Assembly (NCBI GenBank): GCA_019635215.1
Contig: JAHBZZ010000001.1
Location: forward strand, 62,001-126,000
DNA from: Nitrosomonas sp.
GTDB lineage: Bacteria > Pseudomonadota > Gammaproteobacteria > Burkholderiales > Nitrosomonadaceae
DNA length: 64,000 nt
Direction: 5' to 3'
The notes beneath the pieces are model-generated. The model searched no databases, was not told where the DNA came from, and worked only from the letters and a program-made list of their open reading frames with translations. Positions 50,713 to 62,564 of this stretch are shown here, piece by piece. The first letter of the stretch is position 1, and the number at the start of each line of letters is the position of its first letter. The translations under genes were made by a program, and so were the position numbers.

Positions 50713-51405
50713 ATGATAGATGAAATTGACCGCCGTCTTAAGGAATGGATTACTACAGTTATTGACAGCCAACTTGTAATCACATTTGAGCATCCTGGCA
50801 CAAAAAAAGACCAACCCGCAGTTTCGGTTTATTTGTACAGTATGGAATATTCGACGCCAAATTCGACAACAAGAGAAATTCCACTGCAAATAGCATTGTC
50901 TTATCTACTCACTGTTCAATCCGATGATCAGGTTGAGTCTCATAAATACCTGGGGAAAATACTTTATGCCGCCAGATCCCAGTCTGACATGGAAGTCGGA
51001 TTCCCCGCATTACCTGCACAATTCTGGCAGGCCATGGGAATTGCCCCACTACCCCATTTCAGCTTACGCGTACCTTTAATGATGACACGGGAGGTTGAAT
51101 ATTGCCCCGTCATTAAAACTCAACCACATATTGGCATTAGCACCATCACCCATATAACCGGTATCGTTGTAGGTCCCTTAGACCGGCCAATTCCAGGCGC
51201 AAAAATTATACTACCTCATTCCAAAACAGTTATTTATACTGATAACAGGGGGGAATTCTCCACTACGGCAGATGCAAATTCACAACGTACATTCAACTGT
51301 AAAATTGATGCAAAAGGAAAACAGTTTTCTATCTCTGTTCCCATGCAGCAAATACTGAAAACGCCACGTGTGCCTTTTACAATCCATCTTGACTTAGAGG
51401 TTTAA
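50713..51405 (+). CDS. DUF4255 protein, cap/tail-terminator type (Pvc16-like)
   Basis: The first gene of the contractile injection locus. Residues ~1-140 are a DUF4255/Pvc16 N-terminal domain (MIDEIDRRLKEWI, then a beta-rich core, ending in SLRVPLMMTREVEY). In Afp/PVC particles this protein caps the sheath-tube end. Residues ~145-230 form a carboxypeptidase-regulatory-like beta-sandwich (ITGIVVGPLDRPIPGAKIIL, YTDNRGEFST), an added Ig-like domain. The ATG follows GAGG by 8 bases; the sheath gene starts 1 bp after its stop. In most characterised clusters this gene comes last, so its leading position here is notable. Confidence 0.88.
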   Translation: MIDEIDRRLKEWITTVIDSQLVITFEHPGTKKDQPAVSVYLYSMEYSTPNSTTREIPLQIALSYLLTVQSDDQVESHKYLGKILYAARSQSDMEVGFPALPAQFWQAMGIAPLPHFSLRVPLMMTREVEYCPVIKTQPHIGISTITHITGIVVGPLDRPIPGAKIILPHSKTVIYTDNRGEFSTTADANSQRTFNCKIDAKGKQFSISVPMQQILKTPRVPFTIHLDLEV

Positions 51406-51406
51406 T

Positions 51407-52669
51407 ATGCCAAATTATTTATCACCCGGAATATATGTAGAAGAGGTATCTACCGGCGCCAAGCCGATCGGCATGGTTGGCACGAGTGTTCCCGCCTTTC
51501 TCGGCCTGGCGCCTGCTAAAAACAAACATGTCAATCAGGCTATTGCATGCAATAACTGGGGAGAATTTTGCAGGTATTTTGTAAACGAAGACAGTAAAAG
51601 CACGCATCTGGCCCAGGCCGTATTCAGTTTTTTCAATAACCATGGCAGCCGTTGCTATATCGTCAATGTGGGCGAAAACGGCTCCATCTCGGGTGATGTT
51701 AAAAAACGAAGTGGATTATATGCACTGGAAACTATAGACGAAGTGGCCATTGTAGCGGCACCCGGCTACAGCGATGCAATTTCTTATGAAGCACTGCTTT
51801 CGCACTGCGAGAAATTGCAAGATCGTATTGCAATTCTGGATGCGCCGGAGTCTGTATCAGACATTAACGCACTGAAGACGCTAAAAACGGTTTCCAGCAC
51901 CACCAGTACCGGTAGCACCAGTACCAGCAGTGAATCCGGAGAAAGCAAACCGGCAACCGATATAAAAATCGAAAGTACTGCCTCACAAGGATTAAGACCC
52001 CGTAATTCGGATGAAGGTTATGGCGCATTTTATTTTCCCTGGTTCAGGGGATTAGATGCGCTGCAACCTAATTCAGGATCAATCGTAAACATTCCGCCGT
52101 CTGGTGCGATAGCAGGGATTTATGCGCGCACCGACGCCACACGCGGTGTTCACAAAGCCCCCGCCAATGAACAGGTCAGAGGCGCACTGGGATTAACGTA
52201 TAGCGTTTCGAGAGAAGAACATGGTGAATTGAATCGAAAAGGGGTCAATGTTATACGCATGTTTCCTGATGGCATTCGTATATGGGGTGCCAGAACACTC
52301 GCTGCTGAAGCGAGTGAATGGCGCTACATTCCGGTCAGAAGGACATTTAATATGATTAAGGAATCCATTCAGGAAGGGACGCGATGGACAGTGTTCGAAC
52401 CCAATGACATGATGACCTGGAAATCGGTTGAACGTGACATCCGTGCTTTTCTGATGCGTGTCTGGCGTGATGGAGCACTGCTGGGCGCAACACCCGAGCA
52501 GGCTTTTTTCGTTAAATGCGATGCTGAAACAAATCCCCCGGAAGTCAGGGACGCGGGTCAGCTCATCGCTGAAATAGGCATTGCTCCGGTTAAACCGGCA
52601 GAATTCATTGTCTTCCGTATCGGACAATGGACCAATGAAACAGAATCAGCAACAAGTACAGGAGTCTAA
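51407..52669 (+). CDS. Contractile tail sheath protein
   Basis: A 420-residue sheath subunit that assembles around the tube and contracts to drive it forward. The N-terminal YLSPGIYVEEVSTGAKPI and the C-terminal handshake domain (ERDIRAFLMRVWRDGALLGA, FVKCDAETNPP, PAEFIVFRIGQW) are diagnostic. DRIAILDAPE and YGAFYFPWFRG lie in the central fold. A Ser/Thr-rich linker at ~163-180 separates them. It is the only sheath gene in the locus, whereas PVC/Afp have three paralogues. Stops 2 bp before the tube gene. Confidence 0.95.
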   Translation: MPNYLSPGIYVEEVSTGAKPIGMVGTSVPAFLGLAPAKNKHVNQAIACNNWGEFCRYFVNEDSKSTHLAQAVFSFFNNHGSRCYIVNVGENGSISGDVKKRSGLYALETIDEVAIVAAPGYSDAISYEALLSHCEKLQDRIAILDAPESVSDINALKTLKTVSSTTSTGSTSTSSESGESKPATDIKIESTASQGLRPRNSDEGYGAFYFPWFRGLDALQPNSGSIVNIPPSGAIAGIYARTDATRGVHKAPANEQVRGALGLTYSVSREEHGELNRKGVNVIRMFPDGIRIWGARTLAAEASEWRYIPVRRTFNMIKESIQEGTRWTVFEPNDMMTWKSVERDIRAFLMRVWRDGALLGATPEQAFFVKCDAETNPPEVRDAGQLIAEIGIAPVKPAEFIVFRIGQWTNETESATSTGV

Positions 52670-52671
52670 AC

Positions 52672-60771: not shown

Positions 60772-60786
60772 AAGGAGAAGCATACC

Positions 60787-62001
60787 ATGGTCAAAATAGT
60801 CGAAATTACCCAATCTTCGGATACAGTGACCTGCGATACAAACGGTCAAGCGAGCATTCAGTTTAATGTGAATAACATCAGCGCTTCTCGATTACGCGTA
60901 GGCGCCAAAATTATTACTGAAAAACCCGCAAAAGAATCATGGTTCCACATCGTGGATAAAACCGAGAAAAAGCTCGAAATCGACGCCACCGATCATTTCT
61001 CAGTTCAGATCAATGCAAGCGATGCAGCGGCAGGAAGCTATAAACTTCGTCTGCTGGTTTACAACATTGAAAATTCTGATGAAGACTATACCGAAAGTGA
61101 AACGATTGCAGTCAATGTTCCAGCCCGGGAAGAAGCTCCCGAACCGGAGCCCAAATCCAAAATGTGGATTGTCTGGTTGCTGGTCGGTATTTTAGTGATT
61201 GCTTCACTTGCGGTCGGTTATTATGTTTTCAAAGGCCCGGATGAAGCAGAACCGGTTGAACAAAAAGACAGCCTGACAGTGATTATGCCAGGCGTGATCG
61301 GAAAGCCTTTCGAAGAGGCAAAAACCATGCTGGAAGATCTGGAATTTACTGAAATAACAACAGAAACTCGGTTCGATGCCGCAAAAGCGGCCAATACAGT
61401 GCTGGAACAGACTCCTGCAGTAAAAACCAAAGTCGACGTGCGTACTACCGCGGTAACATTGATTCTGGCAAATTCAGTTACGACTATGCCTGACATCAAA
61501 GATATGACCCTGCAAGGCGCAAAAGAACGCTTGGCAAGTAAAGGCTTCAATCTGCGGAATATCGTCACTGAACCCAAATTCGACGCATCGAAACCTGCCG
61601 GCACCATTCTGGCACAATCGCCAGGACCCAATGCAGAAGTCAGCGCGGCAGAAACCAAAGTCACACTGACGATCGCTGATCCCGGCATTGAGGTACCGAA
61701 TGTCAGAAACAAGCTGCTTCAGGACGGGCTGATCAAGCTGCAATCGGCGAAATTGGCGCTGGGTGATATCAGCACACAATTCAAATCTGATCTGGCAGAA
61801 GGAACAATTATTGACCAAACGCCACGCAGTGGAAAAGTTCCTGAGAAAACCGAAATAAACCTTGTTGTGTCGACAAAAAAACAGGCCGCTATCGCGAACC
61901 CGATTTTTCTGGAGGCCATCATCAACTCTGGAATCAAGCATAGCACGCGTATTACCCGCCAGCTTGCGCCAGAGAAATCGAATACAGACTCAGATCAGTA
62001 A
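60787..62001 (+). CDS. Single-pass membrane protein with three PASTA domains
   Basis: 404 residues. Residues ~1-112 form a beta-sandwich, Ig-like domain. One transmembrane helix lies at 126-148 ([23 protein letters not shown]), preceded by KSK and followed by acids, so the N-terminus is predicted cytoplasmic. Three PASTA domains occupy ~164-232, ~232-302 and ~303-370, each with a VIGKPFEEA- or [13 protein letters not shown] entry and a [13 protein letters not shown] turn. PASTA domains bind peptidoglycan or muropeptides in bacterial kinases and PBPs. There is no kinase or PBP domain here. It lies 15 bp after the gpI-like gene and has a ribosome-binding site (AAAGGAGAAG). I infer it anchors the machine to the envelope. 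Confidence 0.85.
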
Positions 62002-62015
62002 CATTATCGATCGCC

Positions 62016-62564
62016 ATGAGTACTACGAAGATCGTCATTATTTGCTTATTCCTGCTGATGGCGATCTTCTTTATCGGCTTAAGCCTGAATCTGATCGAAA
62101 AACCGAATCATGGGGTATCCGGAGAAAGTAAAGCGCAGCAGCGGGAAGTCGCATCGGATTACAAAAAAGACAGCTGGGTTAGCGTCATTGACGGATTACT
62201 GGCGCCATTTGCCGCTTCTCTTAAATCTGAAGACATTGACATCGATTGCTCGCACACAAAAACAGGATTCCACCTGAGCGAACAAACGCCCGTTTGCAAA
62301 ATTTCGATACCCGGATTCAGTGAATCATTTAAAAAGTTGTCGTTCAGGCCCGATAAACGCAACGTTCAATTGAAGATTACCTTTTCACCGACAGATGGCG
62401 ATAAGCAAGATCCTTTTTTCTGGCCTTCAGATGAATTTGACGATGACACGATTAATTTTGTCATTCTGGGGAATGCCGATATGAAAGGAAAAACAGTGGC
62501 AACAATTGTTATCGAATGCCGCAACTGCTCCGATCAGCGGAAAGTCAAAATAGCGTTTGAATAA
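62016..62564 (+). CDS. Single-pass membrane protein at the end of the injection locus
   Basis: A 182-residue protein without known relatives to me. One transmembrane helix at ~5-26, then a soluble domain, presumably periplasmic. Residues ~85-130 include CSHTKTGFHLSEQTPVCK and a late CRNCS, so disulphides are possible. It follows the PASTA gene by 14 bp and ends the operon. A partner in envelope attachment is inferred from position only. Confidence 0.65.
   Translation: MSTTKIVIICLFLLMAIFFIGLSLNLIEKPNHGVSGESKAQQREVASDYKKDSWVSVIDGLLAPFAASLKSEDIDIDCSHTKTGFHLSEQTPVCKISIPGFSESFKKLSFRPDKRNVQLKITFSPTDGDKQDPFFWPSDEFDDDTINFVILGNADMKGKTVATIVIECRNCSDQRKVKIAFE

Follow-up and report, generated by a model that had tools for sequence, protein, structure and literature searches.

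We analysed a 64,000-nucleotide stretch of DNA (hereafter, the window) from Nitrosomonas sp., described as a marine ammonia-oxidising bacterium, which spans bases 62001-126000 of contig C1 (JAHBZZ010000001.1) of a 3.39-Mb draft genome (GCA_019635215.1), and we describe here a compact contractile injection system (CIS) encoded in it together with a set of membrane proteins. According to the list of open reading frames (ORFs), twelve ORFs run tightly on one strand from 50713 to 62564, in the 5' to 3' order cap, sheath, tube, orf4, adaptor, spike, tip, gp25, Cis11, gpI, a PASTA protein with a transmembrane (TM) segment and a small TM protein, the next gene being the convergent gene of a six-TM protein, mp231 (Table 1). 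Intergenic gaps range from -25 to +15 bp across the locus, computed with a gp25 start placed too early; we put the likely start at 57205 because of an ATGA overlap with the tip gene.

Gene content of the cluster

The initial annotation had named cap, sheath, tube, adaptor, spike, tip, gp25, baseplate J and gpI proteins in a tight gene run, and family matches bear this out, the tip being assigned by position. Its inventory was right in these genes and missed the propeller-like region of Cis11, the PASTA protein, the second membrane protein and the six-TM partner, while its borders, 50713 to 62564, hold for the run itself and fall short on the right, where the locus should take in mp231. Sheath, tube, spike, gp25 and baseplate J occur together, and no capsid or packaging genes stand in the scanned flanks, as in a CIS in the broad sense. 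The machine is also reduced, as first proposed, with one sheath gene and one tube gene; no AAA+ ATPase was recognised among the locus proteins of the window (Pfam), nor was a tail fibre of the Afp13 type, for which the locus has no ORF left over. Three of the 12 ORFs (the 478-aa orf4, the 112-aa tip and the 182-aa TM protein) lack a Pfam family.

All 13 genes, mp231 included, are open in six Nitrosomonas loci, and the ratio of non-synonymous to synonymous substitution rates (dN/dS) is 0.01-0.34 for 12 of them in the computable comparisons among these loci; in the pair furthest apart, several genes had reached saturation at synonymous sites. The PASTA gene of genome G055 is intact at 401 aa, its dN/dS alignment having run past its own stop, an artefact. 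Because the 12 ORFs stay open in six loci and dN/dS is low except for orf4, the locus is more than a chance arrangement.

Table 1. Features of the CIS locus and related loci (L, C and G handles throughout are those of our analysis)
Feature	Coordinates	Strand	Basis or remark
Cap / tail terminator, Pvc16-like	50713..51405	+	PF14065 (Pvc16_N) 1e-5, 25.8 bits, cut-off 27
Contractile sheath, small, single copy	51407..52669	+	PF17482 8e-19, PF04984 1e-15
Inner tube, single copy	52672..53100	+	PF06841 1.7e-37
orf4, 478 aa, disorder-like, fast-evolving	53093..54529	+	no family match
Tube adaptor, Afp7/Cis7-like, TTG start	54517..55296	+	PF19266 (CIS_tube) 3.6e-10
Fused hub-spike, VgrG/Afp8-like	55299..56870	+	PF04717 (Phage_base_V) 5.8e-21, PF05954 (GPD) 1.7e-11
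Spike tip, 112 aa	56870..57208	+	position after spike; no family match
Baseplate wedge gp25 / Cis9	57205..57636	+	PF04965 5e-25
Cis11, baseplate J with C-terminal Asp-box beta-propeller-like region (aa about 495-862)	57636..60224	+	Baseplate_J 1.5e-14, TIGR02243 1.5e-75
gpI, Tail_P2_I / Cis12-like wedge, short, 181 aa	60226..60771	+	PF09684 5.4e-11
One-TM PASTA protein, Ig-like N-terminal part	60787..62001	+	three PASTA repeats, 1.7e-35; TM about 126-144
Small one-TM protein, 182 aa, Cys residues in C-terminal domain	62016..62564	+	hydropathy, position
mp231, six-TM protein	62608..63303	-	convergent 3' partner; co-occurrence
Caspase-fold genes	L050:2126-3775; L050:17315-19453; L051:1-1293; window 63480 to L006:3435
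Further CIS-like loci, same genome	C12 L007:687-15551; C17 L010:9559-17190; C19 L009:5469-17600

Among the machine proteins, the sheath finds its best PDB chains in 8bky (1.4e-98) and 8bl4 (3.8e-96), entries of the Streptomyces coelicolor CIS, and Cis11 finds its best match in 9gtp (1.2e-57), with gpI reaching chain 9gtp_E at E 0.003. The C-terminal part of the cap matches a carboxypeptidase-regulatory-like domain (PF13620, 2.7e-4, below cut-off), and cap relatives occur in Deinococcus (27% identity), G640 (30%) and G847 (34%), the ORF at the cap place in Rhodovulum and Paracoccus having no similarity to it. The spike also matches NF033848 at 8e-54, below cut-off. The tip, 42-68% identical in distant loci, we take to be PAAR-like from its position after the spike.

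Cis11 is 862 aa long, against 652 aa in the S. coelicolor chain, and its extra region holds three Asp-box motifs, two of them strict and one loose, under the pattern that we assume for this motif. A profile built from the C-termini of six divergent Cis11 copies resembles propeller proteins in the PDB, namely the BNR-repeat hydrolase 3b7f (1.7e-9), 6p2k (7.7e-9) and the xyloglucan hydrolase 2cn2 (1.9e-8), each match covering about 40-70 of the 366 profile positions, and Pfam returned weak matches to a BNR repeat in four of six members and to sortilin in three. This propeller-like region could stand in for a tail fibre.

Three membrane genes accompany the machine. PASTA repeats were found in all six members scanned, and the Ig-like character of the N-terminal part comes from weak Pfam matches. 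Lysine and arginine are richer on the N-side of the TM segment in nine of ten PASTA proteins and equal in the tenth; for this reason an N-in, PASTA-out orientation is favoured, in which the Ig-like part would be cytoplasmic and the PASTA repeats periplasmic, following the positive-inside rule of thumb. At the place of the small TM gene, all 14 loci read hold an ORF with an N-terminal TM segment or a homologue, with sequence similarity to the window's copy only in Nitrosomonas, Rhodovulum and G640. No family match was obtained for mp231 in the six members scanned. Distances of machine and membrane proteins correlate over eight loci, four of them from Nitrosomonas (r 0.83-0.98), as expected of any co-inherited genes; for this comparison the starts of Cis11 of L107 and L108, gpI of L108 and mp231 of L107 were trimmed to a rough alignment.

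Distribution and place among contractile injection systems

A sheath query matched 50 of 125 Nitrosomonadaceae genomes at E ≤1e-20, six of which carry this sheath type (76-100% identity), the remaining matches being at most 59% identical, and the PASTA gene and mp231 each occur in the same six genomes. The other five loci are those of N. marina Nm22, N. marina Nm71, Nitrosomonas sp. Nm51 and the metagenome-assembled genomes (MAGs) OFTM255 and OFTM190, and a contig scan with two very specific Cis11 peptides returned only these. The nearest loci are Nitrosomonas, in line with the ammonia-oxidiser setting proposed at the outset.

Plasmids carry more distant copies. Cis11 matched 52 of 72,556 plasmid records at 1e-10, and among the best 30 of these, five have an alignment spanning 80% or more of the protein, namely those of Deinococcus sp. 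AJ005, Rhodovulum sp. MB263, R. sulfidophilum (two records) and Paracoccus sp. MC1862. The other 25 of the best 30 (Streptomyces and a relative, other Deinococcus, cyanobacteria) match about residues 1-503 only, without the propeller-like region. Four of the five full-length plasmids were compared with the window gene by gene, the fifth being assigned by its sheath, Cis11 and PASTA matches. Across the four, identity is 44-54% for the sheath, 44-51% for the tube, 34-39% for the adaptor, 27-34% for the spike, 42-55% for the tip, 42-53% for gp25, 31-38% for Cis11, 33-41% for gpI, 24-25% for the PASTA protein and 37-46% for mp231, where 37% is the value of Paracoccus; in distant loci other than Paracoccus, mp231 is 43-60% identical. 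Cap similarity is confined to Deinococcus and small-TM similarity to Rhodovulum (about 21%), the cap and small TM genes elsewhere on the plasmids being named by place and hydropathy. The arrangement varies slightly: mp231 lies upstream of the cap in Paracoccus, not downstream, Rhodovulum has an extra 102-aa ORF with three TM segments between the PASTA and small TM genes, and in Deinococcus gpI and the PASTA gene are separated by an additional ORF of 305 aa, which has TM segments. Trypsin-like and peptidoglycan-binding proteins lie near the Paracoccus locus, which is suggestive only.

Searched by itself, mp231 was found in six of 72,556 plasmids, five of which carry the CIS and the sixth a scar left by its deletion, and the mp231 profile matched five of 369 class-level genomes, its own and four others, three of which carry CIS, PASTA and small TM genes. 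In G640 the gene order is kept, and the place of orf4 is taken by an ORF without a match; G847 is complete except that the contig end cuts mp231; for G747 neither cap nor orf4 gave a match, and the small TM protein resembled only that of Rhodovulum; in G841, mp231, the small TM gene and part of the PASTA gene remain, as the contig ends inside the latter and any machine genes would lie beyond it. One tube gene was recognised in each of the four plasmid loci, G640 and G847, and in G747 the sheath is followed by a gap of 1.2 kb. The set thus recurs in the 14 loci read, from Nitrosomonas, from Rhodovulum, Paracoccus and Deinococcus plasmids and from four other Gammaproteobacteria (in the GTDB sense). 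The phylum sample (1/398) and the order sample (1/399) returned mp231 only from its own genome, all mp231 genome scans scoring at most seven candidates per genome, and a Cis11 scan at E 1e-30 matched one of 398 genomes, a weak result since at most two candidates were scored per genome; within the limits of the phylum- and order-sample scans, the system looks rare. An RND-efflux-pump-like gene, recognised by eye, follows mp231 in two related Gammaproteobacteria (L106:2272-5322 and L107:16134-19184).

The sixth mp231 plasmid, Plasmid2 of R. sulfidophilum DSM 2351, records a natural deletion (L067:14001-15210). Relative to DSM 1374, about 11 kb has been lost, starting at cap codon 25 and ending near codon 10 of the small TM gene, leaving the first 24 cap codons fused to the small TM gene in one ORF; the cluster can therefore be lost as a unit. 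The mp231 gene of DSM 2351 has a premature stop, so that, in this one case, mp231 is damaged where the machine is gone.

Ten members form a clade in both the sheath tree (support 100/99, 51 rows) and the Cis11 tree (100/100, 18 rows). The sheath tree left out two of 53 ORFs, a second sheath-like ORF and a fragment, and the Cis11 tree seven of 25, six locus fragments and a near-duplicate, with Cis11 of L061 and L064 trimmed at the start to a rough alignment. In the Cis11 tree, the clade groups with the S. clavuligerus and D. grandis plasmid loci (98/95), which we call subtype IId by their likeness to the Streptomyces and Deinococcota clusters published in PMC12998442. Since the Cis11 tree and the PDB ranking agree and the sheath tree leaves the matter open, we place the clade next to subtype IId and not within it. 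The simple match to Afp/PVC that had been suggested was not upheld; the system has its own clade in both trees. A further plasmid cluster resembling a CIS, in Treponema succinifaciens pTRESU01 (L069:1-17970), has a small sheath, a 988-aa baseplate J protein and an M23 metallopeptidase.

Gene by gene, the likeness to known systems is partial. The cluster resembles the Streptomyces CIS (CISSc, dbeCIS subtype IId; PDB 9GTP and 8BKY, which with 8bl4 belong to the Streptomyces entries of the papers PMC12237407 and PMC10066040) in having its closest PDB Cis11 and sheath there, in showing no fibre, no typical tape measure and no ClpV, as set out for Streptomyces in PMC10066040, and in having the gene of a TM protein immediately after the wedge genes, that of CisA in Streptomyces (PMC12237407). 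It differs in having one tube gene instead of two (Cis1a and Cis1b), a sheath of 420 aa instead of 534, a Cis11 that carries a propeller-like region, a PASTA protein in place of CisA (judged against the S. clavuligerus protein at that place) and extra small TM and six-TM proteins. The thylakoid-anchored CIS (tCIS) of Anabaena likewise has an extended Cis11 and is anchored in a host membrane, which here is suggested by the genes; there, anchoring involves Cis12 extensions, a Cis13 TM helix and a Cis19 crown (PMC8894136, the main text of which does not use the word "propeller"), whereas here gpI is short, the locus has no ORF like Cis13 or Cis19, and the membrane proteins are separate. With the type VI secretion system (T6SS) it would share a membrane complex and does share a fused VgrG-like spike, yet no TssJ, TssL, TssM or ClpV family was matched among the locus proteins scanned (Pfam, NCBIfam). 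Cap, sheath, tube, adaptor, spike, gp25, Cis11 and Cis12-like genes are also those of the Afp/PVC extracellular CIS (eCIS), from which the cluster departs by its single sheath and tube and by the lack of a recognised Afp13 fibre, Afp14 tape measure or Afp15 ATPase in the window's locus. Simple membership of the Afp/PVC group was rejected, since no Afp15-like AAA+ protein and no Afp13 fibre were recognised in the locus.

Neighbouring genes and orf4

On the left, the cluster is flanked by an FtsX permease and HemN, and on the right by a TPR-CHAT protein, a hydrolase, a U32 peptidase, DNA polymerase III alpha, a 2-oxoacid dehydrogenase and citrate synthase; a DUF4124 protein and a P-loop protein, taken by eye for a GTPase, are also among the flanking proteins. 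Each of the six Nitrosomonas loci has a caspase-fold domain (CHAT or C14) encoded at a distance of 1.5-2.2 kb from the CIS, and the kinds differ (C14, C14 with an FGE-sulfatase domain, CHAT and TPR-CHAT). Of the 31 CHAT/C14 matches in the six genomes, 14 lie within 12.5 kb of the CIS, and the probability of such a nearest distance by chance is 0.6-1.1% per genome under a crude uniform model. We count this neighbourhood as two or three events, because four of the six nearest genes are one orthologous gene by likeness, and regard it as suggestive only. In a defence-system library, the sole matches were to the PASTA part of a kinase family and, for the neighbouring CHAT protein, to TPR/BovA; we draw no claim from them. 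In one Nitrosomonas MAG, a protein with a phage-lysozyme domain and, by eye, a lipoprotein-like start is encoded between the CHAT gene and the CIS (L051:1383-2081).

The genome of the window holds three further CIS-like loci of other types, recognised by sheath matches and delimited by eye (Table 1); that on C19 encodes an AAA+ ATPase and at least one protein with an eCIS_core domain (PF13699).

The product of orf4 has a basic N-terminal stretch, a PPAHWL motif in two copies and a C-terminal EQxGxxW. With dN/dS of 0.32-0.51 among the Nitrosomonas loci, it is the only gene of the 13 for which the ratio is not low. PPAHWL is present in all six Nitrosomonas loci, in two copies in four of them and one copy in two, and was absent from the other loci compared for this motif. 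The length of the orf4 product varies, from 478 aa in the window to 443 aa in OFTM255, 417 aa in R. sulfidophilum DSM 1374 and 334 aa in Paracoccus. Proteins with similar ends, judged by eye, stand at the orf4 place in Rhodovulum, Deinococcus and, in degenerate form, Paracoccus, and G847 has a match of 39%, so that the middle changes fast while similar ends are kept across phyla. From these features, orf4 is a candidate ruler or a candidate lumen cargo, a passenger loaded into the tube.

Proposed docking and firing, and alternative readings

Fragments of peptidoglycan are the ligands of PASTA repeats in wall-sensing kinases and penicillin-binding proteins. In Streptomyces, firing of the cytoplasmic CIS and stress-induced cell death require CisA, which has one TM segment and whose gene follows closely on the 3' side of the baseplate genes (PMC12237407, PMC10066040), and the PASTA gene, directly 3' of the wedge genes, occupies that place. 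We propose that a complete and selected CIS is docked on the cell's own inner membrane by a three-protein module and punctures its own cell, once, under wall damage or stress, and give this reading as a whole about an even chance; docking itself we consider quite probable, while self-puncture as its purpose stands a little below even. The machine would be assembled in the cytoplasm and sit baseplate-first on the inner membrane, held by a module dedicated to docking. The Ig-like part of the PASTA protein would touch the baseplate from the cytoplasm, most likely at the Cis11 propeller or gpI, and the PASTA repeats would touch peptidoglycan in the periplasm. Wall damage or stress would alter this contact, upon which the sheath would contract once, driving tube and tip through the membrane and killing or permeabilising the cell. 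Between a tethered machine and one whose cargo lies elsewhere, the alternative posed by the initial annotation, the evidence favours tethering: docking at the inner membrane is the simplest reading because three membrane proteins co-occur with the machine, because the window's locus holds no ATPase for reuse and because no fibre was recognised; self-puncture would follow the nearest characterised relatives, those of Streptomyces. More tentatively still, we suggest that the PASTA repeats may read the state of peptidoglycan and trigger the single shot, which would make the system an undescribed membrane-anchored class with an inner-membrane complex independent of the T6SS, and a wall-integrity death device of Alpha-, Beta- and Gammaproteobacteria and Deinococcota, partly carried on plasmids.

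Several observations weigh against this proposal. The sheath tree places Treponema next to the clade, with weak support (81/63), and sets the S. clavuligerus and D. grandis pair apart; the best PDB chain of the tube, 7adz (2.1e-20, against 3.2e-14 for 9gtp), is one that we take to be AlgoCIS rather than Streptomyces. Structure models of the C-terminus of Cis11 (AlphaFold) and of mp231 were poor, with a mean predicted local distance difference test score of 45 and 48, and neither the propeller nor the six-TM fold was visible in them; a Foldseek search with the former returned beta-propellers in abundance among the best 50 of 977 matches, which carries no weight alone. No similarity was found between the PASTA protein and the S. 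clavuligerus protein at the CisA place, picked by position and not CisA itself. Genes for VgrG (TssI) and PAAR lie upstream of the CIS of Rhodovulum MB263 (L062:1612-3920), and a VgrG beside the scar of DSM 2351 (L067:15772-18050) is 98% identical to that of MB263, which points to ties with T6SS-type injection in these plasmids; the corresponding place in DSM 1374 has no annotated VgrG or PAAR. In Deinococcus, the annotation shows a 223-aa "AAA family ATPase" some 1.1 kb upstream of the cap (L061:1966-2637), because of which the absence of an ATPase is firm only for the window. The caspase-fold neighbours are seen only in Nitrosomonas, in few independent events, and for the Deinococcus, Rhodovulum and Paracoccus loci the annotation, the only source used there, lists none nearby. 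Stress death in Streptomyces, as reported, needed CIS-associated effectors, and no effector was identified in the present loci, for which no systematic search was made.

The main rival is an outward weapon akin to the T6SS, in which the membrane proteins would be an analogue of the TssJLM envelope complex and the tube would be shot across the cell's own envelope into a neighbouring cell on contact. A co-occurring inner-membrane module with polytopic and PASTA proteins is what an envelope-spanning complex would need, the VgrG-like spike is fused and has a conserved tip, four of the loci compared are plasmid-borne, and the VgrG and PAAR genes of MB263 count a little in its favour; it is nonetheless rather unlikely in our view, given that no ClpV-like ATPase for reuse is found among the window's locus proteins, that no T6SS family is matched besides the shared VgrG fold, and that no outer-membrane partner or effector-immunity pair was recognised in the loci, where these were not systematically sought. 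Clearly less probable is a released eCIS, whose particles, freed by lysis, would attach to other cells by a fibre that went unrecognised and might be the Cis11 propeller, with the membrane proteins serving assembly or release. Beta-propeller lectins do occur in eCIS fibres (PMC12923769), and the propeller-like region sits on a baseplate protein that is peripheral in Streptomyces (PMC12237407), but the window's locus has no separate fibre ORF, a PASTA TM protein follows the wedge genes in the loci read, and the nearest characterised Cis11 and sheath are cytoplasmic.

A prophage or tailocin was rejected on the evidence of flanks, selection and phage searches, and a functionless remnant, a domesticated prophage tail or a tailocin is very improbable altogether. 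Sheath, tube, spike, gp25 and baseplate J do match phage profiles; against this stand the open genes and low dN/dS described above, the same gene order in distant bacteria, and the scarcity of Cis11 in phages, where only 24 of 50,697 records match and the best 20 of these reach at most 55% of the length at 21-29% identity, while in at least 28 viral contigs the match is confined to the Baseplate_J core, spanning 167 residues or fewer at 23-45% identity. Ten flanking proteins, three on the left and seven on the right, out to L006:18019, were compared with PHROGs and nine of them with Pfam, the other flanking ORFs being read by eye, and no capsid, portal or terminase gene was seen, in agreement with the initial annotation, which had read the cluster as a CIS and not a prophage and had named such genes beyond the window as what would overturn it. 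The sole packaging match, that of the P-loop protein to a terminase-small-subunit family in PHROGs, is weak (2.9e-4, 31 residues).

We found no published description of this gene set in the titles and opening abstract lines of open-licence papers; it may be listed in supplements such as the dbeCIS and eCIStem tables. Geller et al. 2021 required at least 10 core genes including one eCIS-specific gene (PMC8213781), and reduced loci could have been missed because of this requirement. The proposed docking bears on an open question, namely how an unreleased CIS finds the membrane and what makes it fire; in Streptomyces, a direct contact between CisA and Cis11 could not be confirmed in the work reported in PMC12237407. 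The clade described here offers a membrane protein with a domain that has a plausible ligand (PASTA, for peptidoglycan), a baseplate with a propeller-like region and one more conserved membrane protein, which makes its trigger accessible to direct tests. Should the module prove to be an envelope complex, it would represent a second, independent solution to the problem solved by the T6SS. A CIS with relatives of the cytoplasmic type is now also placed in ammonia oxidisers and in Rhodovulum.

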